64,000 bases of DNA from Antedon mediterranea. Taxonomy: Eukaryota > Echinodermata > Crinoidea > Comatulida > Antedonidae. The notes below the pieces were generated by a model that had not been told where the DNA came from, did no database searches, and saw nothing but the letters and a program-made list of their open reading frames with translations. The stretch lies in the NCBI RefSeq assembly GCF_964355755.1, contig NC_092677.1:21920101-21984100 (forward strand). Reading direction: 5' to 3'. A program made the translations under genes and the position numbers. How positions within the stretch are numbered: the first letter of the stretch is position 1; every line of letters begins with the position of its first letter. Positions 208-61,923 of the stretch are shown here, piece after piece.

Positions 208-351
208 ACATTAAATGGAATTCCTAATCAAGATACATTTTATGACATAACTGATGCTTTAGAAGAACAGAACATTGAAGCAGTTAGTCAAAAGTTTATG
301 AAGAGAAGAGGTGCAGATTTGGATTTATTAGAACAGTTCAGATTATATGAG
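208..351 (+). CDS. FHOD: FHOD exon: end of N-terminal armadillo (FH3/DID) region
   Basis: A 144-nt phase 0-0 exon between TTTCAACAG and GTTTGT, encoding 48 residues that begin TLNGIPNQDTFYDITDALEE and end LEQFRLYE. From memory, human FHOD1/FHOD3 have a nearly identical stretch (TLNGLPDQDTFYDVTDALE) at the end of the armadillo-like regulatory domain, which is the DAD receptor. This is one of the strongest family identifiers in the window. The donor GTTTGT is weaker than those of later exons. Confidence 0.93.
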
Positions 352-2439: not shown

Positions 2440-4135
2440 CCAGCACAAGATGCAGATGAGTGACATCTCCGTTCCTGTTGCTTCTGGATGATCTACATTC
2501 CATTTTTTCCAGATGGCATTTGTGTTGCCATGGTTACAGTATTTATATTGGGATGTATAAGTATTTTAACGATTTTTTAACCAGTAGAAATACAAAGATG
2601 TTCAACAGCAGTTTGACAATGACCTCCATGTTGTATGACGTTCGGACCATCTGGACTGGATTGAAAGGGTTTCTATGAGAAGCCTCAAAGAAAACCAGAG
2701 GTTTGGCAAGAGATATAGGAATGAGTACATCCAGACCAAATCTGCGCTGAAATGTATGTAATGCCTTGCAATAGTATCAGGGCGTTACTCCAGCAGCGGC
2801 CAACATAAGACCTTATGGCCACACGTCAGGGACACAATGGCAATTGAAAAATACATTTGGTTACGACTCAGAGACTTCATACCATTGATACGGGAGACTG
2901 CAGGTGATTTGGAATATAAGCAATGTGGTATTAAGCATTGAATATTTTGGCCAGAAAGTCTTGCAATGTATTTAAGATCCTGGCAATCAAGTCATATGTA
3001 CATACAGGCAAATATGTGTGCATTGATCCTACAGTTCCAGAGGAGACTCGAGGTGACAACATGGACATGAACTTTGTTATCCACCAGCACTTTTTGAAAC
3101 TACCAACTTACAATACTTTCAGCTAATAAACCAACATGATGCTATGTGGAAACAACTTCTTCTGAATAGTCTAACACATCCAAATCACTGAATGATGTCC
3201 AGTAGGCCTACATTCTAGATGGTAGTGCTCTACTGCACAGCATTCCATGGAATAGTGTAGAGATCTGTAAAAAATATTGCTCTGCCATCATAGTCTTTGA
3301 TGATTATGAAAGCGGTTCATACACCAAAGACGGCGCACATGGTAAGGCGTGTCAGGTGGTAGTGTCCCTGTACATTTTACCAGTGACATGTTCCACAAAA
3401 TTAGATCACTTTCTGTAACAAACAACAATTTATAAATCTTCGTAACTAGTATTTGAACAACATGGCAATGAGTGAATGCAACTGCTGATGCAGATGTTCT
3501 TTCGGATAGTACAAAAAACCATTGAATCAGCAAACAGGAAAACATCTGTCATTATCCGATGACACGGATCTACTAGTGCTCCTCTGCAGTCAAGCATTTA
3601 AAACATATTGTGATATTCTTTAGACTGGAACTGAGATGCTGGACTATCAAACTGGTTCAAACAGTACTTTTGAGAGACATCTGTGATAACCTTCTGTTTG
3701 CTCATGCGATACTGGTGACACAACATCCAGAGTTTTCAGAATTGGCTCTAAAAAAAGCTTGTCATTGCACTTATTTCTTACATTATGCTGTAGTCTTCAG
3801 ATGCAAACAAGCTACAAAGGATGACATTGTGATTGCTAGAGAAAATGATTTAGTGTGTCTGTACAATGGACGACCTGGAAAACGTGGAATGCCTTTGACT
3901 CCATCCCATCTACAAGTACAACCTCGCATATCGCCAACTTCATAATCGTACCACAACCAAGGTACTTAACATCATGTTCAAGTTCAAGTTATCTTTTAGC
4001 AATGGAGTGGGGTTGATATGTGTACCGAGGATTGGGGATGGAAGATCAGATGATGGAAACATGGTTCCTCTACACACAGACTTAAAGCCAGCACCTGAGT
4101 ATCTCCTTGAAGCATTCAGGGGTAACTAGAACTAC
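2440..4135 (+). pseudogene. Decayed ORF of a protein family common in marine invertebrate repeats
   Basis: Scattered pieces in shifting frames are recognisable: VFDDYESGSYTKDGAH (about 3293-3340), LVCLYNGRPGK (about 3850-3885), then a QWSG...EDWGW stretch (about 4000-4040) and DLKPAPEYLLEAFRGN (about 4079-4127). From memory these match a family seen in many marine invertebrate genomes with VFDGY-x-STKD, ALVxLYGGK, NPExWGWK and APDxLLxxVRCNCK motifs. I know no assigned function. It is broken by several stops and shifts, and nothing intact remains. The 5' limit is approximate. Confidence 0.6.
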
Positions 4136-9848: not shown

Positions 9849-12715
9849 ACATTTTATTTATTTATTTATTTATTCATTTCCCAACCAACAGTGAGCTCAT
9901 GGTTCACCACTTACAGGAGGGAACACAGACAAACACGTACATATACAAACAAACATTAAACTAAACTACTAACAATGTTACGAAACTTACGGAAATTATT
10001 ACTAAAAATATCTAACTCAGGGTTTCTTAAAGTAAAAGAATTGTAAGTTTGACTTAATCTACTAATAAAACCATTTTTTAAAACATTTACTCTACTAAAA
10101 GGAATATGAAAAGTAGTATTTCTTCTAAGACGACGACTAGGGACTCTAAGATAAAAATTGCTAACTAAGTTACAGTCAAATAAAGAATTAATACATTTAT
10201 ACAAAAAAACAAGATCAAAAAAGGTTCTACGAGACTCAGAAGATCGGACATGGAAATGAAAGTCAGGATTCTGGTTGTGGCTGATGTAGCGTAAAAAACG
10301 GTTATGCAGACGCTGAATGCGCGTAGACTGAGTTTCCGAAATAGAATTAAAAATAACAGAACAGAAGTTGAGAATGGGATGGATAATTGAATAATAAAGG
10401 TGGATTTTGGTTTGCCTGTCAAAATGTTTACAATTACGCCACATCAGCCCAAGCAGTCTATTGCACTTGCCAACAAGATAATCAATATGAAAGGAAAAAC
10501 AAAGGGAACTATCAATAAAAACACCAAGATCTTTTTGCGATTGCACCCTATTAATGGGATTGTCATTAATTAAATAATTATAAAATAAAATGTTCTTTTT
10601 CAAAGTAATAGTTAAAATATTGCACTTTACTGGATTGAGGGACATTCCCCATAAAGCAGCCCAATAACAAAGCTTGTCCAAATCCACCTGAAGCCTGTCA
10701 GCATCCTCAACACTACCAATAATTCTGTATAGCTTAACATCATCAGCAAACATAAGACATCTGGAGTGGGTGAAGAGTTTTGGGATATCATTGACAAAAA
10801 GATTGAAAAGGAGAGGACCAAGAATCGATCCCTGAGGGACACCGGACTGAATAGGAAGCCATTCAGAGGATATACCCTCAATGACCACTCTCTGGAACCT
10901 ACCATTAAGATAACTACGAAACCAGGAGATAAAATCATTATGAAAACCAAAACGTTGTAATTTTAATAAGAGTAAATTATGAGGAACAAGATCAAACGCC
11001 TTAGAAAAGTCAGTGTAAATAATATCACATTGCTTCCTGTCATCAATGGCTTCGTAAACTGTGGTCAACAGGGTGGCAAGGTTTGTTTCACATGACCTAC
11101 CAGCTACAAAGCCATGCTGACAGGAAGCAATGGCAGGAGAAACATGAGTCGAAATATGGTTAAAAACAATTTTTTCAAACAATTTAGAAATGGTAGGCAA
11201 CAGAGAGATAGGTCTATAGTTAGAAATCAATTTCTTGGTCCCCCCCTTATGAATAGGAACAATATTGGAACGTTTCCAAACGGAAGGAAATTTACCGGTT
11301 TGAAGAGATTTATTAAAGAGGAAAGAAATGGGAATAGAAAGAGGACGAGAACAAACTTTAAGAACATGGTTACTGAGATTATCACATCCAGATGCCTTAT
11401 GAGTCTGAATGGATGACAGTAACGAGTTAACAATTTCAGATTGAATTATTGGAGCATTGAGAATGCCGACAGAAGCCTCAGGCAGACGTTGGTGTTCATC
11501 AGTCACAGAAGGTCCAGATCTAAAAACTGAATGAAAATAACTGTTAAATAAAGCAGCCTTATCATTAGTTGTCTCCGCGACCTTGTGCCCATGCGACATA
11601 ACCGACGGATAAGAAGACGATTTAGTTTTGGTCTTTATCCACGACCAGAAGCGTTTGGGATTTGCCTTAAGATTCCCAGAGAGTGATTGCATATAACTTT
11701 TATATTTAAGTTTCATAAGGACTTTAAATTCTTTTCTGGCAACGGAAAAAGCATGTTTTGATTCATGTGTATTAAGTCGTTTAGAAATACGAAAACATTT
11801 CTCTTTGTTTTTAAGAGCGACTCTAACTTCATTATCAAACCATGGCGGCATTTTTCTTTTAGGTCTAACAATAGGCACAAGATCACGGAGAGCAGCATCA
11901 ACTAAATCATAAAAAAGAGAAACACTATCGTTAATATCATTGCACATATGGATTAAATCAAAAGGTATAACATTAAAAGCATTCAAAAGATCATCATTAT
12001 TTACAGCCTTGAAACAATATAGTTGTCTTGAATCCCTAGAAAAGTGTTTTTGAATAGAAATTTTAAGAACAAATGAAATTGAAGAATGATCAGATTCAAA
12101 AATATTCTGACCAGCAGAAATATCCGAGATTAAATCAATTGAATTATTACACAAAATTAAATCTAAAACATTATTATTGCACGTTGGATTGACATTGCAC
12201 TGAAACAAATTATGTCCATTAATAAAACAGTCAATAAAAAGTTCACCCAATGAGTTAGCAGGTGCAGTTCCATATCCATCATTGGTCCACGTGATTTCAG
12301 AAAGATTCAGATCTCCGATAAGAACAATATGATGCCTTGAATACATGGCTGATGCATCTTCAACTGATTGCGCTAGTTGCAACATGACATCTCTTCCGCT
12401 GTTGGGTGGCCTGTAAATAACAGCAACCAGCACTCGTTTTGTCTTGCTTAGCTTAATTTCAACCCAGAGGATTTCAATATTTGGTTTCTCAAGGTGCTCC
12501 AGACGTCGAGACTTATACTGATTAGAAGCTAGGAAAAGAACACCACCACCTCTTCTGCCATCGTTCCTGTCCCTTCTATGAATTGTAAAACCATCACAGT
12601 AAAGTTCGGAGTCAAGAACCGTTGAATTTAGCCAAGTCTCGGTAAATGCAACAAAGTCGAAGGTATTATTAATGAGGTGCACATTTCTTCTGTGTAAACT
12701 ACAGATTATATTCTA
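9849..12715 (-). mobile_element. 5'-truncated CR1/Jockey-type LINE, antisense to the host gene
   Basis: Reading on the - strand, recognisable endonuclease sequence starts at about 12712 (N-x-x-x-SL, before the long ORF), continues through the ORF at 9956-12682 and a 3' UTR of about 80 bp, and ends in an (AAAT)n tail seen on the + strand as (TTTA)n at 9849-9877. A short A/T microsatellite tail and 5' truncation are usual for this group of non-LTR elements. I could not find a clear target-site duplication. Confidence 0.85.
9956..12682 (-). CDS. LINE ORF2-like endonuclease-reverse transcriptase
   Basis: An open frame of about 908 codons. Residues 1-215 form an exonuclease-endonuclease-phosphatase endonuclease (AFTETWLN, VIYRPPNS, LIGDLNLSEITW, ESDHSSISF). 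Residues about 450-720 form the reverse transcriptase: SNYRPISLLP, DFSKAFDLVPH, GVPQGSILGPLLFN and the catalytic FADDVKLY. A C-terminal Trp/His/Cys-bearing region follows. Together they would nick target DNA and prime cDNA synthesis from the LINE RNA. The codon at 12682 is GTG and the frame continues upstream into more endonuclease-like sequence, so this is a 5'-truncated copy, not a true start. The frame is otherwise unbroken, so insertion was recent. It is antisense within a host intron. Confidence 0.9.
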   Translation of the reverse strand: MHLINNTFDFVAFTETWLNSTVLDSELYCDGFTIHRRDRNDGRRGGGVLFLASNQYKSRRLEHLEKPNIEILWVEIKLSKTKRVLVAVIYRPPNSGRDVMLQLAQSVEDASAMYSRHHIVLIGDLNLSEITWTNDGYGTAPANSLGELFIDCFINGHNLFQCNVNPTCNNNVLDLILCNNSIDLISDISAGQNIFESDHSSISFVLKISIQKHFSRDSRQLYCFKAVNNDDLLNAFNVIPFDLIHMCNDINDSVSLFYDLVDAALRDLVPIVRPKRKMPPWFDNEVRVALKNKEKCFRISKRLNTHESKHAFSVARKEFKVLMKLKYKSYMQSLSGNLKANPKRFWSWIKTKTKSSSYPSVMSHGHKVAETTNDKAALFNSYFHSVFRSGPSVTDEHQRLPEASVGILNAPIIQSEIVNSLLSSIQTHKASGCDNLSNHVLKVCSRPLSIPISFLFNKSLQTGKFPSVWKRSNIVPIHKGGTKKLISNYRPISLLPTISKLFEKIVFNHISTHVSPAIASCQHGFVAGRSCETNLATLLTTVYEAIDDRKQCDIIYTDFSKAFDLVPHNLLLLKLQRFGFHNDFISWFRSYLNGRFQRVVIEGISSEWLPIQSGVPQGSILGPLLFNLFVNDIPKLFTHSRCLMFADDVKLYRIIGSVEDADRLQVDLDKLCYWAALWGMSLNPVKCNILTITLKKNILFYNYLINDNPINRVQSQKDLGVFIDSSLCFSFHIDYLVGKCNRLLGLMWRNCKHFDRQTKIHLYYSIIHPILNFCSVIFNSISETQSTRIQRLHNRFLRYISHNQNPDFHFHVRSSESRRTFFDLVFLYKCINSLFDCNLVSNFYLRVPSRRLRRNTTFHIPFSRVNVLKNGFISRLSQTYNSFTLRNPELDIFSNNFRKFRNIVSSLV

Positions 12716-17313: not shown

Positions 17314-17430
17314 CCTCTTCTATTGATGTGTTTGAATTTCTGAGTCTTGGAGACATGTCTCCTGAATCTAAACATGACCAATGCAAGTGGTCATCAAGTT
17401 CAGACAAATCAAGTCCTATAGCACTAAATA
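17314..17430 (+). CDS. FHOD: FHOD linker cassette exon 2 with DAD-like motif
   Basis: A 117-nt phase 1-1 exon; acceptor TTCTATTATTAG, donor AATA|GTGAGT. It begins S-S-IDVFEFLSLGDMSPE and continues with a Ser/Lys-rich tail. IDVFEFLSLGD follows the D-x-x-x-x-L-x-x-G-D pattern repeated in the giant exon and in cassettes at 28919 and 30312. No other family match. Confidence 0.75.
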
Positions 17431-17915
17431 GTGAGTGTCTCACATTTCTCATCAACTAATGTTGTGTTTTATTCTAATTGATAAGACATGAATAAATTTA
17501 GGATGTAATAACAGTGTGTGGATGGAAATTCAAGAATAAAATAAGCAAAAATGCCAGCGAGTTATAAATGAATTTAAATGCAGATGAATCAATGCTTATT
17601 TTTTACTACAAAAATACTGTAAAACTTATGCATGATTCAAGTTTTAGAAGTTGCACATGCTTCTTCATGGAATGATTAACTAACAATACAATTAAAGTTC
17701 TAATGTACGGAATAAATATTTATTTAGTTTGGTTTCCTCTGCACATAATGAGGAAAAAGTCTCAATGCCAGGTCAATTTTAATCTTAGTCATCAACAAAG
17801 AATAGAGATTAAAAACAATATTTGTATTTAATGCATTATTGGGAATTTTTCCTTTTTTTGCACTGCTAAAACTACACTATATCGTCCACTTTTCTTCATT
17901 TTCTCTTTAAAAAAG

Positions 17916-20900
17916 CTTGCACCAATACTGCTTTGCATGTATCGTGCAACAAGCATGTAAACAACAAACATCATGACCAATCAAAAAAGATGTCTCAGTA
18001 CTTAACTTCAGAAATCGTAGAAAACGGTTCAGAAATTCAAATAAATAATCCAGAAAATGAAATTAAGGAATGTAATAAAGGTGACATTGAAAATGATGAA
18101 GATACATGCAAAACTGATCTAAACGATGTTAAAGGAAATTACAGTAACACAGGTCATATAAATAAACATTTTAAAAGTGAATTAGCAGTACACAATGAAA
18201 CAAATGAAAACCGTCAGTCCTCTTATTTGAGGCCAGATAATGAGTGTAGAGATGATACCCTGGAAAATGATCAATGTAATAAAAAACATTGTTCTATTGA
18301 GGATAAGGAAAAAACAACAAGTAAAATAACAAATGTAGATCGAAGACTCCAAGCTGATATGATTGATTTTGAGGATGACACTGTGCTTAGATTGGCTGAC
18401 GAGATAATTGAATTGGACCGCACTGAGGTGGCTGTGAATGAGACTATTAAACCTAAGCCTAGTTTATCTACTCAGTTTGAAGCAGATAGAGCACAGTTTA
18501 ACTTGCATAAGGAAAACAATAATTCACAACTGTGTTGTAATGGAACTATTAAAATCATGGATAATGAGTCAGCACAGCTTAAAGAAGATGATCGTAAAAA
18601 CTTTGTGAGGATAGAAGATTTTGAAAAGGTAAAGTTTGGACCTGTTAGAAATACAAATGTTGATATCAACACAGCTGAGAAATCAAAGTTAAAGGATGAA
18701 ATAACAAGCAATGCTTGTTTAAATAGCCCAGAAGCAAAATGTAAAAATTGTCCTGAAGCATGTATTGAAGATGACGAACAAAGCAGTCAAGAAAGCAAAA
18801 GTGATATTGATAAAGTAGTGACAGAACAACAACTTCAGGCTATTTGTATTGAAAAATGCTATGGGGATGACTGGAATGGAAAAAGTAACGAAAGGAAATC
18901 AAATCGAAGTAGTGGTGATTTTAGCTTGGATTATTTTGAAGATAGCTTGTCATACCCTGTGATTTCCTTAACAGAACCGCCTAACACACTTATCCCCTAT
19001 GTAGAATATTGTCCTTCTGTAGGTGATACATCTGATGAGTATTTATCATGTGAGGATGATGAAGCCAATACATTAGAAAGAGACCTTGTACTGGATGTCA
19101 ATTTACAATCTGATAATGAAAGCGAAGAAGAATTATCACAAATTTTAAATAATAATTCATCTTTTAAACACAAAAAATCATTAGATCATGATGAAGTGGA
19201 AAATGATGTGATAAGAATCACAGATGATTTTAATGATCAGAAGAAAACAGTTTTAATTGAAGATAAATATGTTCAAAATGAAGGTAAAATTATAAAAGGC
19301 TGTATTGAAAAAAGAAAGTATTTGAATGATAAATTGATTTTGTGTGATTCTGATTCCGGTGTAGGTGATGAGGATTCGGGTGTTCCTGTAAATGAAAGTG
19401 AAGATAATCAAGGTTTAATTGTTGTGCACAAAGATATTTCTGAATGTGTCTATGATGGTGTTTACAGCAGGAGGGCTGGTAACATTTTAGAAAACAGGAA
19501 CGTTGAAGTGTGCAAAGTCCTGGGTCAAGAGGTTAACAATATCTCTATTGATAAAAACAAGCTGGCTTTTGAAACCCAGCCTGAGCTTGAAAAGCCTGAG
19601 GCAATACCCAAGTCTATGCATTCATTTGATGTGGATAAAAAGAATATTAACAATCATGTTGGAAACGTGTCTGTAGATACAGGTGATTCCTATCCAAACA
19701 GAAATAGCTCTGGGCAAAATGGATACATGCAAATTATAAAAGATGAAGATATATCTTACAGTGAAAGTAAAACTAATGATAAAATAGGGGTTGACAATTT
19801 CTGTTGTGGATCTTGTATTACTGGAGGGAAAACTACAGTTGTGAAACCACAATCCAAGGGTAAAAGTCATCAGATACAAAAAGAAAATAACCAACAATTA
19901 CAGGTACCCTGCCAAGAACTTGGTAGCAGTTGTTATGTAGGGTTATTTCAAGGTAAGTCACCTGCCTTGCCTCATGTTGAAAACAGTAATCTAATTGGGA
20001 ATTCTGTATTGGATAATACATTTTTAGATAAAAGTGAGAGAATTCTACCTCAGACAAATGGCACCAATTCCTGCAATGAGACAACAGATACAAATGTTGA
20101 ACATGGATTAGTATGTCTATCAAGTGATGCTAAACATATTAATGTGGAAGATGGATTGAAGCCAACATGTACTTCATTGTGTATGCCTCATACCTTAATG
20201 ACAAATGATGAGGTTGTTAACAAGAAAGATGAAAACCAGATAATATACTCTGATGATATTAATATGAGATTGATACCAATTGATGAAACATTTGATAATC
20301 ATAATTCTATTTTGGAAAATAAAGTTCCTAATAAAATCGATGAAAACGACACAGAGAACCTAGATTTACAAGGCAGACAAGATAATGAATCCACTAATTT
20401 TAAAAATGTTCCTACTCATTTGTCTTTAGAAAGAGGAAGTAATATTGATGAGAAACAATGTAACAACACTATAGGCAACAGCACCAAAGAAGAGGATATT
20501 GAAGTGCATTTAGATGATGAGATTGACAGTTCTGAGAATGTTGATATAGAATATGTTTGTGAACAATTATGTAATATAGAAGTAAAGCCCAAGAACAATG
20601 TCAATGAAAGTAAAGATACCAATACAGATGAAAACACTAATAATTTACATCCATTTAATCAGGAATTAAAAGACAAGAATGATGGTCCTTTGGATTCTGA
20701 AAATGTGGTAATTGCTGCACATAATGATTGTTTCTCAAGTACAAGCTCTCAAATTGAATGCAATATGGAAGGTCAACCAATAGAAATAGAAATTTCTCAA
20801 ATCTCTACTGAATCTGACTTGATCGGAAATGACATTTTACAATGTTTGACTAAAGAAGTAGCAATTAAGATGAGTACATCAGATTGTAATTATAAAGAGA

Positions 20901-23900
20901 TGAACAAAATTGTTCATAATGATCAAATGCTTTCAATTGAAGATGAAATTATAGTTCTTCAAGATTCTAATCTAAGAGAAGAGCCAGCCAGTGAAAAACA
21001 GAGAATAGGGCTAGAATATGACGTACCAGGAACACCAGTTCAAGTCAATAAGGAAAAAGTCGTTGAGCATGAAGACACTCATGATTTTAATAATTTCTAT
21101 GTAAAAGAAACTGAGCAAAATGTAAGCACATCTTTAAATGATGAAAGTAAATCTGATAAATGCAATAATTTGTTATTACATGAAAGACAAACTAAAAAGA
21201 GAACTCATAAGAAATCACCAGAGCCATCTTTGTTTCAAGTAGCAGAGAAAGTTAGCCATGACCAGAGAAATGCAATCATGGATGATGTTCAAGACATTCT
21301 TCTGCTTCTTAGTATGGGTGATTCTAGCTTTGGTAGTACAGAAGAAAAAGATGAAGAAACATACATCAACTCACCTGATGATACTATTATCAAGGAGAAC
21401 AGTCAAGATGATGATAATGATGATGAACGTACAGAAATGGATGTTGGGTATGATCAGTTTGATACAGACATAGAAGATGAAATAGATACTGACAGAAAGG
21501 AAGATAACACAGGTGAAATTTACATAGATGAAAACCCATTGAAAAATAAAACATCTATTGTAACTGATTCGTCAACAAGTGCCACAGGTAGTATACATTT
21601 TGATGAATCAATTCATACAATTTCAAATAAAAGTATTTGTATAGATGAGCCTGTAACATTAAAAACTAACCAACACAAAGAGAACATCAGATCTGGTAAG
21701 TCAAATGAGGAAGAAGATTCTATTGGTTTCAGTGATACGGATGTAAATTTTACAGAGATTAATGTATGCAAGAAGTTAGTGGACTCTTTTGAAAATGAAA
21801 TTTGTTTACCAGAGTGTACACCAAAATGCGTCAGTTTTACAGAAAAACAAGGTAATAATGAAGCATTGATGAACCAATTACAAAATACAGCACTATCTAA
21901 TTGTGGGGAAAACAAGATCATTCCTCCTGTAGATAAAACTAACATTATATCATCTTCAAATTATCTTGGTAATGACTGTACTGATCCAAATATTTATTAT
22001 AAAAGAAGAAGAGATAATTTAAATGGTAAAAGATGGGATGAGGATGATGAAATACTTAAACTATTAACTTCTGGCGTTTCTCAACCTGAACATACTGAAA
22101 AGGAAATGTCTTGTATGTCATTGAATAGAAGGTGGAATCATAAAATTGAAGAAAATTCTGACAAAAAAGAATTGGAAAATAGTAAAAAGGAATGTGAAAA
22201 ATCTGTAGATGAAATAATTACCTATGATTCTCTACCTGATGTTAGCCCAAAGCCTAAAGAAAAGAAAGTTTTGGCAAAACCAAAACGTTGGAAAAAGCAA
22301 ATTGAAGAAGAAGTGCTTACTGTTAAAGCGATTAAAATAAAGAAAGCCAAACAAAAGTGTGAAAGGACAGATGATGATTTGCTCAAAATGTTAAAAGGTG
22401 GTGCTATAACTGACCAGATGAGATTGGCTGAGAAACAAAGTAAAAAACGAAAGGAAAGACGAATCAAGGAACAGAAAGAGGAAGAAGATGCACTCAATTT
22501 CTTAAAAGGTGGAATTGCAGACTTTGTAATCGAAGAGGAAAATTCATCCAATGAGAACACAGAATGCTCAGAGATAATTGTAGATGCAAATACGAAAAAA
22601 GCTCTAAAGAAAGAACATTTAATTAATAAAGACACGCTAGAAATATCAATTGATACCGCATTTAAAGGAATGTCTAAAACAGAAGAGGAGAAAATGTTGG
22701 CCATGTTATCAGTACGTTCTAATTCTGACAAGAAAAAGAAAACAGAAGATGATAATTTGCTATTGCTTTTAAGTGAAGGAATCGAGGATGTAGATCTATT
22801 TGATGATTTCCAAGACACTCAAGTTGATGTTTCTGAATTGTCATATTATAAAGGCCTAGAGGAACATACAGATGTAAAAGAGGCTGAAAATGATGCAGAT
22901 AGTATTGATGAAGAACTATCAGATGAAGAATATAAACATTTACCGGCAGATGAGGGATCCCTTTTGTTAATGTTATCAACTGGTGCAATCAGTGAAAAGG
23001 AACAATTAGCACAAAAAGTAGCCTATGCTAAAAAAAGAGAAAAAGAGGAACAGAATGATTTGCTTTTGCTTTTGAGTAATGGAACACAACATTTAGAATT
23101 AGATATGTCTACATTCCACGAAAAGCAAGAAGAACATATTGCCAGTGACAAATACAATGATAATTACTTTGATTCTGAAAATTCAAATTCAGAAGTAGTT
23201 TATGTCACAGACCATACTATTTCACATGAAAGTCAAAATCATGTTGGTGCATCTCCAAAAAGCATTAGTATAGTTAGTGATGAAGATGAGATTCTTGCAT
23301 TATTAAAATGTAGTAATAAACTTGTATTTGAAAGTGATACAAAAGGAGTTCCCCACCAATCACCAGTAGTTCCACAAAAAACAATTTCAACATCAGAATT
23401 AAAAGAAACTTGTTCCAATGAAGGTAATAAGGCAAATGTTGAAATGTTGAATCCTATAGAAGAAACATGTACAGTGATAATGTCAAAGACAAATTGTAAC
23501 TCAGATAGTCTGGAATTAGACACCCAAATAAACAAGAAATCAACTCAGCTGAGAATGATACCAATGGAAAAATCGGTACAAAGTAATTCAGATACCATTG
23601 GCAAAGATAAAATCCTAAGCACTTCTACTATGGTTAAGGAAGATGAAGCCAAAAGTGAAGATAAACTATGTAAACAAGCATCAAGCTCCTTTCCTGTGGA
23701 AACATACAAAACAATTAGTGACGAAGATGCTGAAGCACTGTTTTCACTTTTGAAATCTGGTGATGAACCCACTAAAAATATAATGGCTTCATCAGGTGTT
23801 ACACATGCACATAACTCACCAGTTGAAAATATGAAAATAGCGCATTCAACAGTAACAAATACTGAACACCAGGATCAGGATTGTATGTTGAGAAATATTG

Positions 23901-23957
23901 ATGAGATTAAACAAGATAAACCAAAGGTTACTGGCTCCTCCATAACTTCAGAGAACA
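17916..23957 (+). CDS. FHOD: FHOD giant linker cassette exon (6042 nt) with DAD-like motif array
   Basis: One open exon of 2014 codons, phase 1-1: acceptor TTTCTCTTTAAAAAAG (imperfect), donor AACA|GTGAGT. No ATG start belongs to it; the frame enters from the preceding exon. The open frame runs on to a TAA at 24086, but the strong donor at 23958 makes the last 131 nt intron. The protein is acidic, rich in Asp/Glu/Asn/Ser/Lys, without membrane segments or known folds, so probably disordered. The last third carries about ten copies of an acidic-then-LLxxLxxG motif, near 21293, 22043, 22370, 22491, 22687, 22750, 22949, 23050, 23279 and 23718 (examples DILLLLSMGD, DEILKLLTSG, DDDLLKMLKGGA). KRW/RRW basic patches lie at 22001-22300. 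The spacing equals the MDxLLxxL core of formin DADs. An assembly or pseudogene artefact is unlikely, because the frame stays open for 6 kb. Confidence 0.82.
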
Positions 23958-24327
23958 GTGAGTATCTGCATGGCATTGGGTGCTTGGAGTTCAGTGTTTT
24001 TAAACTTGTGCATGGCAAAGTATATAGTATTTTATTTAACATTAGGTGTATTGCTTTAGCATGTGTAATTTGTATCCACAAGTTTTAACAATTTAATATT
24101 AGCTGATTAAATGGATAGGAGACCACTTAATTATTAAATTGATTGTCCTTTTCAAGTTTATCAATATTTAATATGAATTTTATTGCACTTATAATTTATA
24201 TTCGTATTAAATAAAATGTTATATAACCTTATATGCCATTATCAAGTACTATTATCATTATCAATATCATTGACATCATCAAGCACAAAATATTTAAAGC
24301 TTATGACACTTGTTTTCTTCCTTTAAG
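23958..24327 (+). other. Intron
   Basis: AT-rich; the first 131 nt stay open in the exon frame and could be retained as an alternative C-terminus ending at the TAA at 24086, but a perfect donor argues against it. Nothing else seen. Confidence 0.7.
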
Positions 24328-24372
24328 CCTGGTGGCCTGATAGCGCAGAAAGTCCTCAGTGTAGTCCTTACA
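24328..24372 (+). CDS. FHOD: FHOD linker cassette exon 4 (45 nt)
   Basis: Acceptor CTTCCTTTAAG, donor TACA|GTGAGT, phase 1-1. Encodes WWPDSAESPQCSPY. The opening WW is shared with the exon at 27148, hinting at exon duplication. Confidence 0.7.
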
Positions 24373-25003
24373 GTGAGTACAACACATCACCAGCACATCT
24401 CATAAAACAACAATGTTTAGTTAAATTAAAGCTTAGTTTCAACTTCAAAACCTGTCGTGATACACTGTACTATATATACTACAATTATAGCATAATGATT
24501 CCATCACAAATACAATATGATTAGTGTAATTGGATAAAACGAAATTAGATGAAGTTGTTTAACTAGATATCTTTTTAAAATAGCCTTTTTGGTAGAAGCT
24601 TGTTATATGTAACCTCTGCTTTATGAGCGTATTATTTCTTATTTTTGTTTTTTGTTATTTATGTGACTTATGCCATAAACTATTAACTGTTGTGATTGTA
24701 GTGAAAACAATTTTATTTCCCTAGATTCTTGTTCCAATAATGATTGTGCAAATATCGTTTGTGGAAGAAATATTAACTTTTAATTTGACATTGACTTGTT
24801 ATTTCTAACCATAATAATACATTGGTACCATATTAGCATTCTTGTTTTTAAATAATATGGTTCAATGAAGCATATTGTTTCCCTCTTAGTCTTGCCATCC
24901 TCAAATATAATATTCATTTCTCCTATTTAGAATAAAAAAAAAATATTGTACTGTTCTTGAATTCTAAATTGCTATCTTTTAAATGCTTCTTTGATTTCTC
25001 TAG

Positions 25004-25036
25004 AGACTTTTCCTCCATCTGACAAACTGTATAATA
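25004..25036 (+). CDS. FHOD: FHOD linker microexon (33 nt)
   Basis: Acceptor TTTGATTTCTCTAG, donor AATA|GTAAGT, phase 1-1. Encodes TFPPSDKLYN. Both splice sites are strong and the frame is kept, which supports it despite its small size. Confidence 0.62.
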
Positions 25037-26301
25037 GTAAGTTTTAGTTTTTACTTTTTAAAAAATTAGACGATACATGGTCTATTTCTGCTGCATAGCG
25101 CCGAATAAACCGTTCATAGATTTAAAATATAATTTGTATATTGACTGCATTTCTTCTCAATTTTTGCCCCTAAATAACTGTTTAAATCGTTAGCATTACT
25201 CAAAATGCAATGGGTCCTGGTGGTTAATTCAAACGTTACTGCAGTATAGTTGACTGAAGGTCAGCGGCTGTCAAACAACAGGTTAAATGGCACTGAATCA
25301 ATTGGGTGTTTTTAACTGTTATTAATAAATTATTAGTAAATTTAATACTATTCTTCTAATTTGATTTGAGTTTAGCTGTTAAATAACATGAAAGAAACAA
25401 TGAATATAAGAATTAATTTTGATTACATTATTTTTGTTATTTTTTAATTAGGGATATGGGTATAAATTCTAAATGATGCTAACTTTTTATGGCAACACTC
25501 TTAAACTGAGAAACCTGTTATGATGGTAATTCTAAATTTGCCCATCAGTAGGCTTAGGCCTAATTTTTTTTTCTTCTATTATTTGTATTTTTCTTTTTAT
25601 ATCGCCTTAAATTAAAGTTTGTAAAAGTATTTCAAAATTGTAAACAATTTGATATTGTATGCCACTTTAGCTCATATAACTAATTACAAGTGATTACCGG
25701 TATATTATAACACCTAAATAAATTTCTGTCATTTGATTGGACTATTGTGAGTCACATGGTGATCGTTAAATAGTACTTTTTTTTGTGTCCGAAAAAAAAT
25801 TATGTTCGCGTACGAAAAAATGTACACAATAACAAACAAAAACACTTGATTATATCGCCATGGAATTTTTTGAGAGATATACGTACTATTTTAGACCAAA
25901 TTAGCATTTAAATTAGCTTTAGATCGTTGATGATTTTGATTAATTAATGGCAACAACTCAAAAAGACATGGAATCGTAGAAACAAAATACAAAATTAGCC
26001 TCAATCACTTTCAGTTGCCAGGCGAAGTTTCGAAATGATATTGCTGACTTTCTAGCCTAAGCTAATATATACTATTATTATAAAATCATATTATATAATA
26101 GCTTAGTCCACAAAGGCAGCAATACCCTTATAAAAATATATATAATTGTTTTGCAATATAAATAATGTTACAAAAGAACAAATAAATACTACTGTTTTCA
26201 ATGTCAATGTGTATTATGTATATATATTATAATATCTGTATGCTTTTATTCAATCTGATTCAAATGACAGGAATCTATTTAGATGTTATATAAAACCGAT
26301 A

Positions 26302-26457
26302 ATAATGAATGTTTTTATTCATGGAATGGTACAAATAATATCATTCGGTGAATGATGAAAAGTTATTTCCTTTGCCTCGTTAAAATATAACCTTTCATCA
26401 TTCTCCTCATGCCATTATTTGTACCATTCCACTCATAAACATTCATTATTTGTACTA
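26302..26457. repeat. Foldback / palindromic MITE
   Basis: AATAATGAATGTTTTTATTC, then ATGGAATGGTACAAATAAT, on the left; ATTATTTGTACCATTCCA, then TAAACATTCATTATT, on the right. Inner GAATGATGAAAAG and CTTTCATCATTC also pair. Arms about 65 bp with mismatches. Confidence 0.8.
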
Positions 26458-26508
26458 TTTAATATTAGAACAACCTATGAAACAATGCAGATGAAATAGT
26501 AGAATATG

Positions 26509-26972
26509 ACCCCATTTACACTTCAGCTTTTAGCGAGCCCGAGTCCGGCTCCGAGCCAAAAGTGCCCAAGTGTAAACACTCTGGGAACAACCGAGCCGGC
26601 CTCGAGCCGGCTCAATTTTGAGCCTAGTCTAGAGTAGGCTTCGGGCCGGCAATTACGGGCTTCGGGCCGGCACTTCGTAAATAGTGTAAACACTCGCGGT
26701 CATAAAATGAACGTTCTGGGTCAACCATAGTTTAAAGTTTACGAAACTTATTGGTGATGAACGGGAATTCTTCATTGAAATTAAATTGGTGTATATATAT
26801 ATATATATATCTTATCATCGAGCACTCTTCCGTGAGAGCAAGTGTAAACACAATAGTAGGGGCCCGAGGCCGGCTTTTTGGGTAAGTGTAAACACATTGC
26901 GGGCTAAAAAGAAAGCCGGCGTCGGGCCGACTTGGGGCCGGCTAAGAAATCGTTGATGAAGAGTAAATGGGG
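26509..26972. mobile_element. GC-rich TIR element (hAT-like MITE) with repeated GTAAACA motifs
   Basis: Ends are GACCCCATTTAC and GTAAATGGGGTC, a 12-bp perfect inverted repeat. Inside are four AGTGTAAACAC motifs (near 26570, 26684, 26841, 26884), one inverted (TTTACACTT, 26515), and many GCCGGC/GGGCCGGC words in an otherwise AT-rich intron. Subterminal repeated words like this are usual in hAT-type non-autonomous elements. No coding sequence. Confidence 0.75.
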
Positions 26973-27147
26973 TCTATGTGTAACCAGTTGCCCTTTGTTT
27001 ATATTATGGTACTTTGGTTCAATTCAAATCAGAGCCAGAAGAATGAGATAGTGAATGGTTTGCAGACTTACAAATGATTTCAACCTATATAATATTTAGT
27101 TATCATTGTTATGATATATTTATATTTGGTGATTGATTGATTGATAG

Positions 27148-27261
27148 ATTGGTGGAGTATGCACCATACTACAAAATCACATGCAACAATACAGGAAGAA
27201 CCAGAATTGAGTTCAAAAGAGACAAAAACAGCAATCAATGTAGCATCTGAAGCTACGACAC
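27148..27261 (+). CDS. FHOD: FHOD linker cassette exon 6 (114 nt)
   Basis: Acceptor after GATTGATTGATTGATAG, donor CACGACAC|GTAAGA, phase 1-1. Encodes a stretch starting WWSMHHTTKSHATIQEEPEL, then Lys/Thr-rich. An internal AG at 27197-27198 would give a shorter 63-nt exon that also keeps phase, so the 5' border is uncertain. Confidence 0.6.
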
Positions 27262-27344
27262 GTAAGAATATCAAACATGCTAGTTGCTATTGCAATACAC
27301 ACTAACATATATTTATATAACCGTTTTTTTTGCAGCTCAAATAT

Positions 27345-27625
27345 TGGAATGGAATTCTAGGTTATAATAATAATAGGCAATGTATAATTGGTTTGAAAAA
27401 TATAAATTTTTAATTTAGCATCGTTATCCTAGTATCTGGGCCGGTATACGACCTTTGGGAATAATGCTTAAACCATGGAATTACAGTACTATAGTTTAGT
27501 TTATGATTATATTTTGTTTTGTACAGTAGGCAAGACTATATTTACATTAAACAAAATGATTGTTAAAACAAAAATAATTGATAATAAATCATTATTTCTG
27601 AAGAAAGAACAATAATTATAAATGT
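27345..27625 (+). repeat. Dispersed repeat copy (partner at 56685-56940)
   Basis: Shares with 56685-56940, in the same orientation: GCAATGTATAATT, GCATC.TCGTTAT, TAGTTTATGATTATATTTTG, TGTACAGTAGGCAAGACTAT and AATTGATAATAAATCATTAT. Confidence 0.75.
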
Positions 27626-27969
27626 TACGTCAAAAAGTTGAGCAGCATTTTTTGTAAGAAATATTTCTTGTTATCAGTTTTCTTGCAGCCGGCCAATACA
27701 GTGGTTTGGAATGCAATTCTAGGTTTTCTTTGTATTATAATTTCATTATGGTTTTTAACAAGCATATTTAGTAATTCTTTGGATTATTCTTTAAATTACT
27801 TTTTAATCGAATATTCATGTCTATAATTAAACAATATTTTTTGTAATGTACAAAACACAGTAATTGTGTGTAGATTTCCGTTGCTTTTGGCTTTGTCATA
27901 GATTTTCATTGGTTCCTTTAAACACAGATTTAATTTATTGGACAAATAATTTTTAGGTTTCAAAATATT

Positions 27970-28392
27970 AGACTAGAAGGTATTCTTTTTTTGAAATACA
28001 TGATTCCTGGTTTTATATGCATCAATGTCGACCTGCATGACAGAGGATGTGCATGTGTATTTTCTAAGATTCTGAGTAGAAGTTATTCTTTTTGTTGAAA
28101 TACATGATTACTGGTTTTATGCATATCAATGTCTACCTGCATGACACAGGATGTGCATGTATATTTTCTGTTAGATTCTGAGTAGAAGTTATTTTTTTTG
28201 TTGAAATACATGATTACTGGTTTGCATATCAATGTCGACTTGCATGACAGAGGATGTGCATGTGTATTTTCTGTAAGATTCTGAGTAGAAGTTATTCTTT
28301 TTGTTGAAATATATGATTTCTGGTTTTATATGCAGATTTCAATAACTTGCATGATAGGATGTGCATGTGTATTTTCTAGATTCTGTATCAAT
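27970..28392. repeat. Tandem repeat, four units of about 105 bp
   Basis: Each unit has GAAGTTATTCTTTTTGTTGA, ATACATGATT.CTGGTTTTAT, GCATGACAGAGGATGTGCAT and TGTATTTTCT.TAGATTCTG. The array ends 50 bp upstream of exon 28445. Confidence 0.9.
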
Positions 28393-28444
28393 GATGATTG
28401 ACTTTTATTTGTTTTCTTGGATTTATAATTATATTTCAATACAG

Positions 28445-28528
28445 CCTCTTATATTGCTGTTAGTGTTACTTCTGAAAAGGCTAAAGCTGTAGTCCCTCGA
28501 TACAGGTCTAGGCAGAGAATTCAAGACA
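28445..28528 (+). CDS. FHOD: FHOD linker cassette exon 7 (84 nt), basic motif
   Basis: Acceptor TTTCAATACAG, donor GACA|GTGAGT, phase 1-1. Encodes SYIAVSVTSEKAKAVVPRYR then SRQRIQD. The PRYRSRQR patch is of the basic class seen in several other cassettes. Confidence 0.75.
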
Positions 28529-28918
28529 GTGAGTTGTTCACTAGATTTGTTCACTGATAAAGGAAAATTCGATTGTAAAAATGTTTGTATTAATGTACAT
28601 TAACATTCTAATGAAATATAGTCTCATACACTGATGTTTCATAATGAACAAAATATTTTTTGGTTTAGTTATCGATACTCTAACAGTATTTTTAATACAT
28701 TAATACATATTCATAATACACCCATAGCGATAACATACAATCAATAATAGTGAAGCACAACTTCTACAATTTCAATTGTGCTTCCTACATACAATTATTA
28801 TTACAGTATTTAAAAATATTTATTGATGTAAATAAATATTGTTTGTTTCTTTTAGTATTGGATTGCAGTTGCAATTTATGACCGTAATCATATTTTATAT
28901 AAAACCACTTTTTTATAG

Positions 28919-28972
28919 ATGCTGATGATATTATGAAATTATTAATGGAGGGTGATTCAACTTTAGATTGTA
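28919..28972 (+). CDS. FHOD: FHOD linker cassette exon 8 (54 nt): one DAD-like motif
   Basis: Acceptor CACTTTTTTATAG, donor TGTA|GTGAGT, phase 1-1. The whole exon is one motif: ADDIMKLLMEGDSTLDC. It matches D-D-I-(L/M)-K-L-L-x-x-G-D of the giant exon, so a single skippable exon adds or removes one motif. Confidence 0.8.
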
Positions 28973-29336
28973 GTGAGTACATGTCCCTCCCTTATAGTTT
29001 ACTTTCTATATCACCATTTTTCACACACAACTAAATTACCAAATCTATAAACTATTTTTGTCACTTTTTACTTTTTACACAACATAACATTACTTTAAGT
29101 AAGATTTCAATCAAAGTAAGATAGCAATACAAAGGAGAAAAATGTTATCATGTTTAAGAGGTAAAGTGTATAATGTATTAATATTCAATTAAATATAATA
29201 CAATTGAATATTAATACATTTAAAAATCATTGGAATTCTTGATCATTCTTATATGTATTCATCATTAAGTTAAAATTTAATTAAGGGAAGAAATATTAGA
29301 TTAACATCATTTCATTATACAATATTTACTCATTAG

Positions 29337-29459
29337 GTAATACAGATTTAACATCATGCAATGACATGTCAAAAGATGATAATACCATCAAGAAGTCTCT
29401 CACAGAATATCCTTCAAGACCAGTGGATAAATCTACTACACAATCATCTGTAGTGGGCA
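29337..29459 (+). CDS. FHOD: FHOD linker cassette exon 9 (123 nt)
   Basis: Acceptor TATTTACTCATTAG, donor GGCA|GTAAGT, phase 1-1. Polar Ser/Thr/Asp/Lys-rich sequence beginning NTDLTSCNDMSKDDNTIKK; no recognised domain. Confidence 0.72.
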
Positions 29460-29894
29460 GTAAGTGTTAGAACAAGTAGAAATGTGTTTTCATTCAATTT
29501 GTTTAGAGTTTCTAACATTAGCCGTCTTATGTTATATGACAATCAATGCACATGTTTTCCCATTCCTACTGTGCAATTATATTATTACTATTTGTTCATC
29601 TGGTTGGACACTTTTTTGGTGGTTTGTGACAGTCCAGATAAATCCATTCTCTAAGTTAAAATATAGTTTTATAGGTATTCATGTAATCATAAATAAAACA
29701 TAAAAAACATTTAAGACCTGATTTTATGTTCTATGCCTGTTTATATATAATAGTATTTCTTCGGAGGTCCAGCTTCGTAAATTAAAATACTGAAAGCATA
29801 TCAATTCTGTCTCTGGTGCAGATGCGTATAGTGCTGTTTCACTGTACCACACCAAAAGTCCCTATCCAATTAAATTTTGAATAATACCATGAAA

Positions 29895-29971
29895 GCCCCA
29901 GTGGTCTAATTTTAGGATATCTGCATATCAAGCAGAAGGTTCCAGGTTCAAATCTCGGTTGCGGGGACCTT
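29895..29971 (+). repeat. tRNA-like SINE head (copy also at 51262-51400, inverted)
   Basis: GCCCCAGTGGTCTAA (A-box-like), an anticodon-like stem TCTGC-ATATCAA-GCAGA and a B box GGTTCAAATCT, closing with GGGGACC. The T-stem is mismatched, so it is not a functional tRNA. The upstream GTGCTGTTTCACTGTACCAC is shared with the inverted copy, showing a longer repeat unit. Confidence 0.65.
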
Positions 29972-30311
29972 TTCTCATTCTCACAGTATAAAGTATAAAG
30001 TTAAACAAATATTATTTTAAAATATTAAGTTAAACTGTTTTCTACATCTATGATACAAATAGTAATGTTAAAGAAAATGTTTAGATCTTTACTCATAATT
30101 TATGTGTAACTTTTATGTTATTCAGTAGGTATTATTTATTTTGTTAATTAACCACTGTATACAAATAATTGATAGTACAGTAGAGTGTTTTACGCAAAGC
30201 TTTATTGTGATTATTTTGTATTTGTTAAAAAAGTTTATTATGTAGTAGTATTAATTTTATTCATTACATTTAAAAACTAAATACATTTTTATGATACTTT
30301 ACCCATAATAG

Positions 30312-30407
30312 AGAAAAAAACTACAGCTGATGATGAAGAAGATATATTGAAATTGCTCACGAAAGGTGACTCATCTCCCAAGACTATGATATCTACTCAT
30401 ACTGAGG
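30312..30407 (+). CDS. FHOD: FHOD linker cassette exon 10 (96 nt) with DAD-like motif
   Basis: Acceptor TACCCATAATAG, donor GAGG|GTATGC, phase 1-1. Encodes KKTTADDEEDILKLLTKGDS then SPKTMISTHTE. DEEDILKLLTKGD is a near-perfect copy of the giant-exon motif (DEILKLLTSG). Confidence 0.8.
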
Positions 30408-40046: not shown

Positions 40047-40049
40047 GTA

Positions 40050-42610
40050 GCGAATTCTAGAATCTTCATTTCTTGCATGTAGCAGAGTTTTAGTATCTTT
40101 GTTTTTTACATGTAGCAGAGTTTTAGGATCTTCATTTCATGCATGTAGCAGAGTTTTAGTATCTTCATTTCTTGCATGTAGCAGAGTTTTAGGATCTTCA
40201 TTTCATGCATGTAGCAGAGTTTTAGGATCTTCATTTCATGCATCTAGCAGAGTTTTAGGATCTTTATTTCTTGTATGTAGCAGAGTTTTAGGATCTTCAT
40301 TCCATGCATGTAGCAGAGGTTTATGATCTTCATAACTGAGTTTTAGCATCTTTATTTCTTGTATTACTATTTAGCAGAGTTTTAGAATCTTCATTTCATG
40401 CATGTAGCAGAGTTTTAGTATCTTCATTTCTTGCATGTAGCCGAGTTTTAGGATCTTCATTTCATGCATGTAGCAGAGTTTTAGGATCTTTATTTCTTGT
40501 ATGTAGCAGAGTTTTAGGATCTTCATTTCATGCATGTAGCAGAGTTTTAGGATCTTCATTTCATGCATGTAGCAGAGTTTTAGGATCTTCATTTCATGCA
40601 TGTAGCAGAGTTTTAGGATCTTTATTTCTTGCATGTAGCAGAGTTTTAGGATCTTCATTTCATGCATGTAGCAGAGTTTTAGGATCTTTATTTCTTGCAT
40701 GTAGCAGAGTTTTAGGATCTTCATTTCATGCATGTAGCTGAGTTTTAGTATCTTCATTTCATGCATGTAGCAGAGTTTTAGGATCTTCATTTCATGCATC
40801 TAGCAGAGTTTTAGGATCTTTATTTCTTGTATGTAGCAGAGTTTTAGGATCTTCGGATCTTGCTGTAGAAGAGTTTTAGGATCTTAAAGCTCTCTGATCT
40901 TTATGAAATAGCGTTATATAAATGTTGCAATATTGTCTTCATTTCTTGCATGTAGCAGAGTTTTAGTATCTTCATTTCTTGCATGTAGCAGAGTTTTAGG
41001 ATCTTCATTTCATGCATGTAGCAGAGTTTTAGTATTTTATTTCTTGCATGTAGCAGAGTTTTAGGATCTTCATTTCATGCATGTAGCAGAGTTTTAGGAT
41101 CTTTATTTCTTGCATGTAGCAGAGTTTTAGGATCTTCATTTCATGCATGTAGCTGAGTTTTAGTATCTTCATTTCATGCATGTAGCAGAGTTTTAGGATC
41201 TTCATTTCATGCATCTAGCAGAGTTTTAGGATCTTTATTTCTTGTATGTAGCAGAGTTTTAGGATCTTCGGATCTTGCTGTAGAAGAGTTTTAGGATCTT
41301 AAAGCTCTCTGATCTTTATGAAATAGCGTTATATAAATGTTGCAATATTGTCTTCATTTCTTGCATGTAGCAGAGTTTTAGTATCTTCATTTCTTGCATG
41401 TAGCAGAGTTTTAGGATCTTCATTTCATGCATGTAGCAGAGTTTTAGTATTTTATTTCTTGCATGTAGTAGAAGTTTAGTATCTTCATTTCTTGCATTTA
41501 GCAGTTTTAGGATCTTCATTTCATGCATGTAGCAGAGTTTTAGGATCTTCATTTCATGCATGTAGCAGAGTTTTAGGATCTTTATTTCTTGCATGTAGCA
41601 GAGTTTTAGGATCTTCATTTCATGCATGTAGCAGAGTTTTAGGATCTTTATTTCTTGCATGTAGCAGAGTTTTAGGATCTTCATTTCATGCATGTAGCTG
41701 AGTTTTAGTATCTTCATTTCATGCATGTAGCAGAGTTTTAGGATCTTCATTTCATGCATCTAGCAGAGTTTTAGGATCTTTATTTCTTGTATGTAGCAGA
41801 GTTTTAGGATCTTCGGATCTTGCTGTAGAAGAGTTTTAGGATCTTAAAGCTCTCTGATCTTTATGAAATAGCGTTATATAAATGTTGCAATATTGTCTTC
41901 ATTTCTTGCATGTAGCAGAGTTTTAGTATCTTCATTTCTTGCATGTAGCAGAGTTTTAGGATCTTCATTTCATGCATGTAGCAGAGTTTTAGTATTTTAT
42001 TTCTTGCATGTAGCAGAGTTTTAGGATCTTCATTTCATGCATGTAGCAGAGTTTTAGGATCTTTATTTCTTGCATGTAGCAGAGTTTTAGGATCTTCATT
42101 TCATGCATGTAGCTGAGTTTTAGTATCTTCATTTCATGCATGTAGCAGAGTTTTAGGATCTTCATTTCATGCATCTAGCAGAGTTTTAGGATCTTTATTT
42201 CTTGTATGTAGCAGAGTTTTAGGATCTTCGGATCTTGCTGTAGAAGAGTTTTAGGATCTTAAAGCTCTCTGATCTTTATGAAATAGCGTTATATAAATGT
42301 TGCAATATTGTCTTCATTTCTTGCATGTAGCAGAGTTTTAGTATCTTCATTTCTTGCATGTAGCAGAGTTTTAGGATCTTCATTTCATGCATGTAGCAGA
42401 GTTTTAGTATTTTATTTCTTGCATGTAGTAGAAGTTTAGTATCTTCATTTCTTGCATTTAGCAGTTTTAGGATCTTCATTTCATGCATGTAGCAGAGGTT
42501 TATGATCTTCATAACTGAGTTTTAGCACCTTTATTTCTTGTATTACTATTTAGCAGAGTTTTAGAATCTTCATTTCTTGCATGTAGCAGAGTTTTAGTAT
42601 CTTCATTTCA
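40050..42610. repeat. 33-bp minisatellite with a 960-bp higher-order repeat
   Basis: The unit is about 33 bp: TAGCAGAGTTTTAGGATCTT followed by CATTTCATGCATG, with CATTTCTTGCATG and TATTTCTTG(C/T)ATG variants. From about 40540 to 42496 the sequence repeats with a 960-bp period that looks identical by eye. Spacers with GGATCTTGCTGTAGAAGAG sit at about 40855, 41270, 41815 and 42230 (spacing 415, 545, 415). Both flanks carry CATAACTGAGTTTTAGCA. Open frames of 11-residue repeats on both strands come from the 33-bp period and are not genes. Confidence 0.95.
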
Positions 42611-46724: not shown

Positions 46725-47761
46725 GATCAAATGAAAAAGTTCATTTACCTATGGTCCAAAAATTAGCCAGCAGTCCTACAGAGACTGCTTTTCATCCTCT
46801 AGTGCAATCATTAAAAACAAGTCAAACACAAGATGCTATGCAAGAGCAGATCCAGACAAGTCCCACATCAGATTCACTAAAAGCAATTAATGGACCACAT
46901 ATTCCTAGTAGCGCTGGCCTGTCGGATATGAAACCACATACTCCTAGTAGCGCTGGCCTGTCAGATACAAAACGTTATATTCTAGATATGACATATAAAC
47001 CAGATGACTTACCAACAGCATCACCATCATCCCATTCACGAAAAATATCAACTTGCCTTCACAATTCACCTTCTATTATTACAAGAATGGAAAGTTTGAA
47101 TTCTCCATCTACCCTCTTATTACCACAGAAAGACATTTTAAATAATTTTGGAAAAGTACAATCTGTTCAGGACAAGCTGCAATTACAGTCTTCACCTGAA
47201 GGAACAGTAGCAGAAGAATCTAGCCGTCGTGGTGATGTTAGTGGTGCTATTAGCCAAGCAATTCAAGATTTAAGTCGTACAAACCCACCAGGATCAATAT
47301 CAGAGGAAGAATCAATCCCAAATCCACACGAAGAACGCAAAAAAGAATGGGAAAAGATCTTGCATATGAACAAACGTGAGCTACGTATTATGAATTGGGA
47401 CTTCACTGACCTAAATACTGAAGATGATGATGATATTTTAGATTATTTAACACCAATGTACTTTCTGAATGGTGTACCACCACCACCTCCAGTTAGTGGG
47501 GCACCAATGTTTATGCCACCACCGCCACCTATTGTCAACTCGCACAATAGTACGTTGAAAAGGACACCTGATGAAATAAATAAGAAAAAGAAAACGGTAA
47601 GACTACATTGGAAGGAAGCTAACTTGGAGCATCCGGTGTTCTCTTCCATAAAAGAGGGTTCTCAGACAGGTACAATCTGGGAAACGCTATCATCAGTAAA
47701 ATTAGATTGTGACAAACTTGAACATTTGTTTGAGAATCGCACTAAAGAATTGTCGATCAAG
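46725..47761 (+). CDS. FHOD: FHOD exon: pre-FH1 linker, FH1 and start of FH2
   Basis: A 1037-nt exon (phase 1 to 0); acceptor TTCTTATTTTCAG, donor CAAG|GTAAAT. Order: a Ser/Thr-rich linker with a 13-residue tandem duplication (46895-46972); a helical stretch with the FHOD-typical WDFTDL (about 47396) followed by DDDDILDYLTP, which resembles the repeated DAD-like motif; a short FH1 with two PPPPP tracts (47475-47530), the profilin-actin recruiting part; and the FH2 start KTVRLHWKEANLEHPVF (from about 47594). The open frame runs 40 nt into the intron before a stop; the donor and FH2 alignment end the exon at 47761. The ATG at 46751 is internal. Confidence 0.93.
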
Positions 47762-61808: not shown

Positions 61809-61923
61809 AAATTTACTGGGAAAGACAAAGAAGAGGATGCAAAGCTTCAAAAGCTTTTGAAAGGTTCTGGAACAACTCCTGGTGATGATGCAACACGTAA
61901 AGCAAGAGCAAAGAAACCCCAAA
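61809..61923 (+). CDS. FHOD: FHOD exon: C-terminal tail with a DAD-like motif
   Basis: A 115-nt exon (phase 0 to 1); acceptor TATATTTCAATTAG, donor CAAA|GTAAGT. Encodes KFTGKDKEEDAKLQKLLKGS, then GTTPGDDATRKARAKK. KF(S/T)G after RGKMI is shared with FHOD proteins, and vertebrate FHOD3 has a similar M-K-x-x-L-K-x-S-S motif before its DAD. DAKLQKLLKGSG plus a basic RKARAKK patch has the same make-up as the linker motifs. The canonical DAD exon must lie to the right. Confidence 0.88.

Follow-up and report, generated by a model that had tools for sequence, protein, structure and literature searches.

The FHOD gene and its exon model

The window, that is, the whole 64-kb stretch of Antedon mediterranea DNA analysed here, carries most of one FHOD formin gene on its + strand. 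At 181-429 the sequence is similar to human FHOD1 (3dad, E 3.5e-11) and exceeds the cut-off for the Pfam family FH3_FHOD1-3. This stretch represents the end of the N-terminal domain, so that only the final part of the DID/FH3 domain lies inside the window, and the exon that closes this domain is placed at 208-351 (+) by the 3dad alignment and the exon model. Further downstream, the Pfam FH2 domain is represented by four pieces in the region 46.7-52.3 kb, two of them above the cut-off when taken singly. With a FHOD-type FH3 domain followed in order by FH2, the gene is a FHOD formin.

Candidate exons were obtained from a simple splice and codon score, and twenty of them were joined into a model that encodes 3168 amino acids with zero stops. 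Between 17314 and 46540, nine consecutive retained exons are all of phase 1-1 with a length divisible by three, although this run is partly a product of our own exon selection: the candidate 27195-27261 (score 14.7), which breaks the phase run, was dropped, whereas the similarly scoring candidates 28919 (10.6) and 33743 (11.3) were retained. The candidates at 3294, 12755, 12944 and 24328 were also left out of the model.

Four phase 1-1 exons on the + strand contain the short motif that is the subject of this analysis. The first (17314-17430) carries one weak copy (IDVFEFLSLGD), as identified by a leave-one-out profile, and is followed by a giant exon of 6042 bases (17916-23957), whose ten copies span 21296-23761. 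A 54-base exon (28919-28972) encodes little besides one copy (ADDIMKLLMEGDSTLDC), and a 96-base exon (30312-30407) encodes another one (EEDILKLLTKGDSS), both recognised by the exon model and the profile.

The window contains additional elements. A 918-amino acid open frame on the - strand (9956-12712) contains reverse transcriptase and endonuclease domains (RVT_1, E 1.2e-33) and reads as a non-LTR retrotransposon inside a FHOD intron. A tandem repeat with a 103-base unit in 3.4 copies (27974-28329) lies a short distance upstream of the motif exon that starts at 28919, and an intronic minisatellite at 40047-42610 consists of about 80 copies of a 33-base unit and is open in places in the + frames.

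A repeated acidic-leucine motif in the linker

The preliminary description of this DNA had reported acidic residues followed by I/L-L-x-x-L-x-x-G at about ten places of the giant exon and in cassettes at 17314, 28919 and 30312. The motif is indeed present at all thirteen places, in strict or varied form: in our form of the pattern, seven of the thirteen copies match strictly and the other six are variants. In the giant exon, the copies on the + strand are g1 ILLLLSMG (21296-21319), g2 ILKLLTSG (22052-22075), g3 LLKMLKGG (22379-22402), g4 ALNFLKGG (22490-22513), g5 MLAMLSVR (22694-22717), g6 LLLLLSEG (22757-22780), g7 LLLMLSTG (22961-22984), g8 LLLLLSNG (23060-23083), g9 ILALLKCS (23291-23314) and g10 LFSLLKSG (23738-23761), while the cores in the three smaller, frame-neutral exons start at 17328, 28930 and 30344. 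The weak copies g5 and g9 lack the G, and the first two hydrophobic places deviate in the copies at 17328, 22490, 23738 and 28930. For the profile, a core in a tail exon (61845) was added to the thirteen linker copies; across these 14 candidates, the L at position 4 is invariant (14/14), a G occupies position 7 in 11 of them, and D or E predominates at positions -4 to -1.

The motif is far more frequent than expected by chance. The giant exon contains six strict matches, whereas 2000 shuffles of the same composition average 0.10, an approximately sixty-fold excess, and 2000 shuffles within 30-amino acid blocks average 0.09; in neither type did any of the 2000 shuffles reach six. Thus, the comparison with shuffled sequence proposed in the preliminary description came out in favour of the motif, and the motif array in the FHOD linker is real, on the evidence of one genome. 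In a leave-one-out profile over the 14 candidates, ten copies each have an expectation below 0.1 in a shuffled linker of 2677 amino acids (200 shuffles). Expectations are higher for the copies at 17328 (8.0), 22694 (1.6) and 23291 (0.2) and for the tail core at 61845 (0.64), and as the profile was constructed from copies chosen by eye, these figures are too favourable to the weak copies. When all six frames were scanned with the full profile, the 14 candidates, themselves the source of that profile, scored at least 20.7; four other places exceeded a loose threshold (scores 7.4 to 9.3), two of them antisense.

Motif-like stretches were also noticed near and behind the FH domains. The pre-FH1 stretch TEDDDDILDYLTPM (47417-47458, +) resembles the motif without its G, with a profile score reached by 71 of 5000 of its own shuffles, and may coincide with a conserved FHOD stretch at this place. 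The tail exon after FH2 (61809-61923, +) combines a weak motif-like core (EEDAKLQKLLKGSG) with a basic stretch; its score is reached by 12 of 5000 own shuffles, and we presume that it may correspond to a tail stretch of vertebrate FHOD proteins.

Codon comparisons bear on the age of the copies. Third codon positions of the thirteen copies are identical at a level of 0.354, which is reached by 141 of 1000 synonymous-codon redraws (mean 0.331) and by 39 of 500 random codon sets (mean 0.321). In contrast, identity at positions 1 and 2 is 0.544, compared with 0.308 for random codon strings. Since third positions are randomised while the amino acid pattern is kept, the copies are not recent; they look constrained at the protein level and would be either old duplicates or convergent sites that are maintained at the amino acid level. 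A recent exon or tandem duplication was rejected: apart from the randomised third positions, the tandem-repeat search revealed no tandem array across the motif region, and the repeat search revealed no repeat joining the exons at 28919 and 30312. A 32-base family at 66-75% identity, to which the repeat finder assigned five motif copies plus one further place, is ascribed by us to the shared amino acid pattern.

The spacing of the copies is not uniform. From g3 to g9 the distances are 37, 68, 21, 68, 33 and 77 residues, and this alternation of short and long intervals arranges six copies in three pairs (g3/g4, g5/g6 and g7/g8). When the paired units, including the motif itself, were compared with each other, two of the three comparisons scored higher than all 300 shuffles, and the third did not (14/300); the similarity of the inter-motif segments alone was not significant (32/500 shuffles). 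Structure prediction suggests, with low confidence, that the copies are helical. AlphaFold2, run on one sequence, placed eight of the nine cores of the folded stretch in predicted helix at a mean pLDDT of 42, with copy g6 non-helical, and a circular-shift test of the overlap between helix and core gave 38/5000; for the paired unit, with three sequences, a single 51-residue helix was predicted (mean pLDDT 75). CK2 sites in front of the motif, searched on the model of the T(D/E)5XE exon of FHOD3, showed no clear enrichment (7/13 copies versus 43% of 137 acidic control positions).

The linker has 15 hydrophobic clusters (at least four of five residues), and twelve of them are motif copies, an overlap that is not independent, as the copies were partly recognised by their hydrophobicity. 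This coincidence would also be expected if the copies had no specific partner and served as hydrophobic stickers through which the linker associates with itself or condenses, or were by-products of acidic low-complexity drift under weak constraint. The helical hydrophobic moment is equally compatible with such an origin, being unremarkable (three of the thirteen copies reach the linker's 95th percentile and several are below the linker mean), and so is the lack of a convincing domain match in the searches described below. However, the fixed L and the frequent G are more exact than stickers would need, and single copies are encoded by stand-alone exons. We consider a sticker or drift origin rather unlikely.

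Comparison with DAD, LD and WH2 motifs

The preliminary description had suggested that the linker carries decoy or graded autoinhibitory peptides, i.e. copies that would compete with the C-terminal DAD for the DID groove and thereby tune autoinhibition. There is a weak likeness to DADs. The motif and the DADs of FHOD1 and mDia1 have in common a putative short leucine-rich helix with an acidic residue and similarly spaced LL and L, to which mDia1 adds the G and A, and the FHOD1 core (DEIMDLL) resembles DDIMKLL and DEILKLL. When scored with the motif profile, the FHOD1 DAD and the mDia1 DAD exceed most of their own shuffles, with 32 and 73 of 5000 reaching their scores, a closer fit than that of paxillin LD2 or the N-WASP WH2 peptides, yet their best registers are four residues, or one helical turn, apart. 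The tail exon, in which a weak copy occurs together with a basic stretch, also speaks for this reading.

Most of the evidence points away from DAD membership. The FHOD1 DAD core has been described as phi-M-D-x-L-phi-x-x-phi (PMC12858348), and none of the thirteen copies complies with it in either register, even if any hydrophobic residue is accepted for Met; in the register of the preliminary description, Met is absent from all thirteen. The motif lacks Met-Asp at the required places and has an extra hydrophobic residue at position 3, and it occurs in many linker copies in an acidic context rather than once after FH2: all thirteen linker copies precede FH1, and only the weak tail core at 61845 follows FH2. 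The strict FHOD/Dia DAD pattern was found zero times in the spliced protein, and no canonical FHOD DAD was recognised within the window. In ungapped comparisons, a match at least as good as the best one in the linker was also present in 480 of 2000 shuffled linkers for the mDia1 core and in 267 of 2000 for the FHOD1 core. A search of PDB sequences with the 13-copy profile retrieved no formin at E values up to 10, and six distinct mDia1 sequences containing the DAD are present in the searched set.

In FHOD1, autoinhibition is reported to depend chiefly on an extended polybasic region together with acidic FH3 residues, and less on the core; single core substitutions left pull-down binding unchanged, and M1108A partly activated FHOD1 in cells (PMC12858348). 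Of the four acidic FH3 residues that contact the basic region of the FHOD1 DAD, the Antedon mediterranea protein retains three, with D290 replaced by N, if the chain position in 3dad is taken as residue number, and a basic ligand is therefore expected. In contrast, the 30 residues following a copy are net negative in ten of the thirteen cases and carry +2, +1 and 0 in the other three; a basic stretch is present within these 30 residues for g3 and g7. The comparisons thus do not support membership of the copies in the DAD class, and the weak resemblance would, in our reading, reflect a shared grammar of short helices. That the copies act as decoy or graded DADs seems improbable to us.

Paxillin LD motifs dock onto helical bundles, and an LD-type array that binds four-helix bundles such as FAT or the vinculin tail would be a special case of docking. 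As in paxillin, several short acidic-leucine helices would be spaced along a disordered chain; the relaxed pattern [DE]-x-L-L-x-x-L occurs four times in the protein, three of them at motif copies (22373, 22688 and 22751), and paxillin LD2 exceeds most of its own shuffles on the motif profile (298/5000 reach its score). Unlike in paxillin, the strict pattern LDxLLxxL is missing from the FHOD linker, with zero occurrences in the spliced protein, and LD2 and LD4 find matches of equal quality in shuffled linkers (1619 and 319 of 2000). True LD motifs are accordingly a distinctly improbable identity for the copies.

It is very improbable that the copies form a WH2-like array for binding actin monomers and delivering them to the FH2 domain: the motif has the LL..L/I..G spacing in common with WH2, and formin DADs have themselves been termed WH2-like (PMC5047451), but the motif lacks the basic LKK tail, the spliced protein contains the strict pattern LLxxI/LxxGxxL-K/R zero times, on the motif profile the N-WASP WH2 peptides are indistinguishable from shuffles of themselves (2528 and 1752 of 5000), the best ungapped linker match of a WH2 string is out of register with the motif and is reached by 246 of 2000 shuffles, and Pfam WH2 was not matched by the ten pieces scanned.

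Searches in larger collections assigned the motif to no family. The Pfam scan of the ten pieces produced only three weak chance matches far below the cut-off (PexRD54_WY, 0.25; VioE, 0.22; Uso1_p115_C, 0.6). Residues 30-43 of annexin A5 resemble the motif (E 0.48 among 177635 PDB sequences), and although this helix, picked from the whole PDB set before it was scored against shuffles, fits the profile better than any DAD (0/5000 own shuffles reach its score), an annexin repeat was rejected because no annexin family in Pfam matched the scanned pieces. A pattern search of viral contigs gave 19 matches, of which zero were confirmed. Such a motif array is not named in the titles or abstract openings among the matches listed from the open-licence literature.

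A possible docking array and its relation to known FHOD linkers

The other suggestion of the preliminary description, a multivalent docking array, stands as a plausible interpretation and is the reading that we favour, at roughly an even chance: an array of short capped helices, with exon skipping as a possible means of adjusting its valency. It builds on the copies, the exon phases of the model, the amino acid constraint and the hydrophobic islands, all of which are demonstrated here. In this reading the array is old and lies in the linker that separates FH1 from the N-terminal domain. In each copy, the acidic residues would act as an N-cap, followed by hydrophobic-L-x-hydrophobic-L-x-x-G with the G as C-cap, and each would thus form a sticky point within an otherwise hydrophilic chain. 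Six copies are organised in three pairs, with a basic helix or a short lysine-rich stretch as the connection. The copies may dock on one or a few partners of the helical-bundle or groove type, most likely cytoskeletal or sarcomeric, and many weak sites would jointly hold the formin in place.

The motif exons are frame-neutral and contain 1, 10, 1 and 1 copies, so that their skipping, suggested by the phase symmetry of the modelled gene, could determine how many sites an isoform carries. The more specific proposal that anchoring or self-inhibition of the formin is set digitally, with about thirteen copies, partly one per exon, being added or removed by splicing, is speculative and on balance unlikely. 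Against docking in general, the Pfam scan of the ten pieces indicated no partner, and a hydrophobic island in an acidic chain will resemble "acidic plus leucines" even if no partner is shared. The FHOD linker helps to decide where the formin is placed in muscle, and a repeated motif that appears constrained at the protein level offers a concrete docking candidate. If the copy number were indeed tuned by splicing, the protein would be an actin nucleator of tunable valency.

Multivalent docking is proposed by analogy with the linker inserts of other FHOD proteins, the Fhod3 exons and the long isoform of Drosophila Fhos. Exons 11 and 12 of Fhod3 are, we assume, located in the linker. Localisation of Fhod3 to the sarcomere is reported to require these exons (PMC3324543), and the FHOD linker in general is described as disordered, as the site of muscle splice inserts and as a weak binder of F-actin (PMC10192571). 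The array resembles the muscle inserts of FHOD1 and FHOD3 in that these are optional exons of the linker, as the motif exons may be, and, for Fhod3 exons 11 and 12, direct localisation. It differs in that neither a repeated short motif nor a 6-kb exon is mentioned for them in the portions of these accounts considered here, and in that splicing of the Antedon mediterranea motif exons is so far inferred. In Drosophila, Fhos contains an exon of 1198 residues without recognised domains, and its long isoform goes to the Z-disc (PMC5061545). Both genes thus combine a FHOD formin with a giant domain-free exon, a likeness drawn by description only, and the Fhos exon encodes the N-terminus, whereas the giant exon of Antedon mediterranea lies in the linker between FH3 and FH1.
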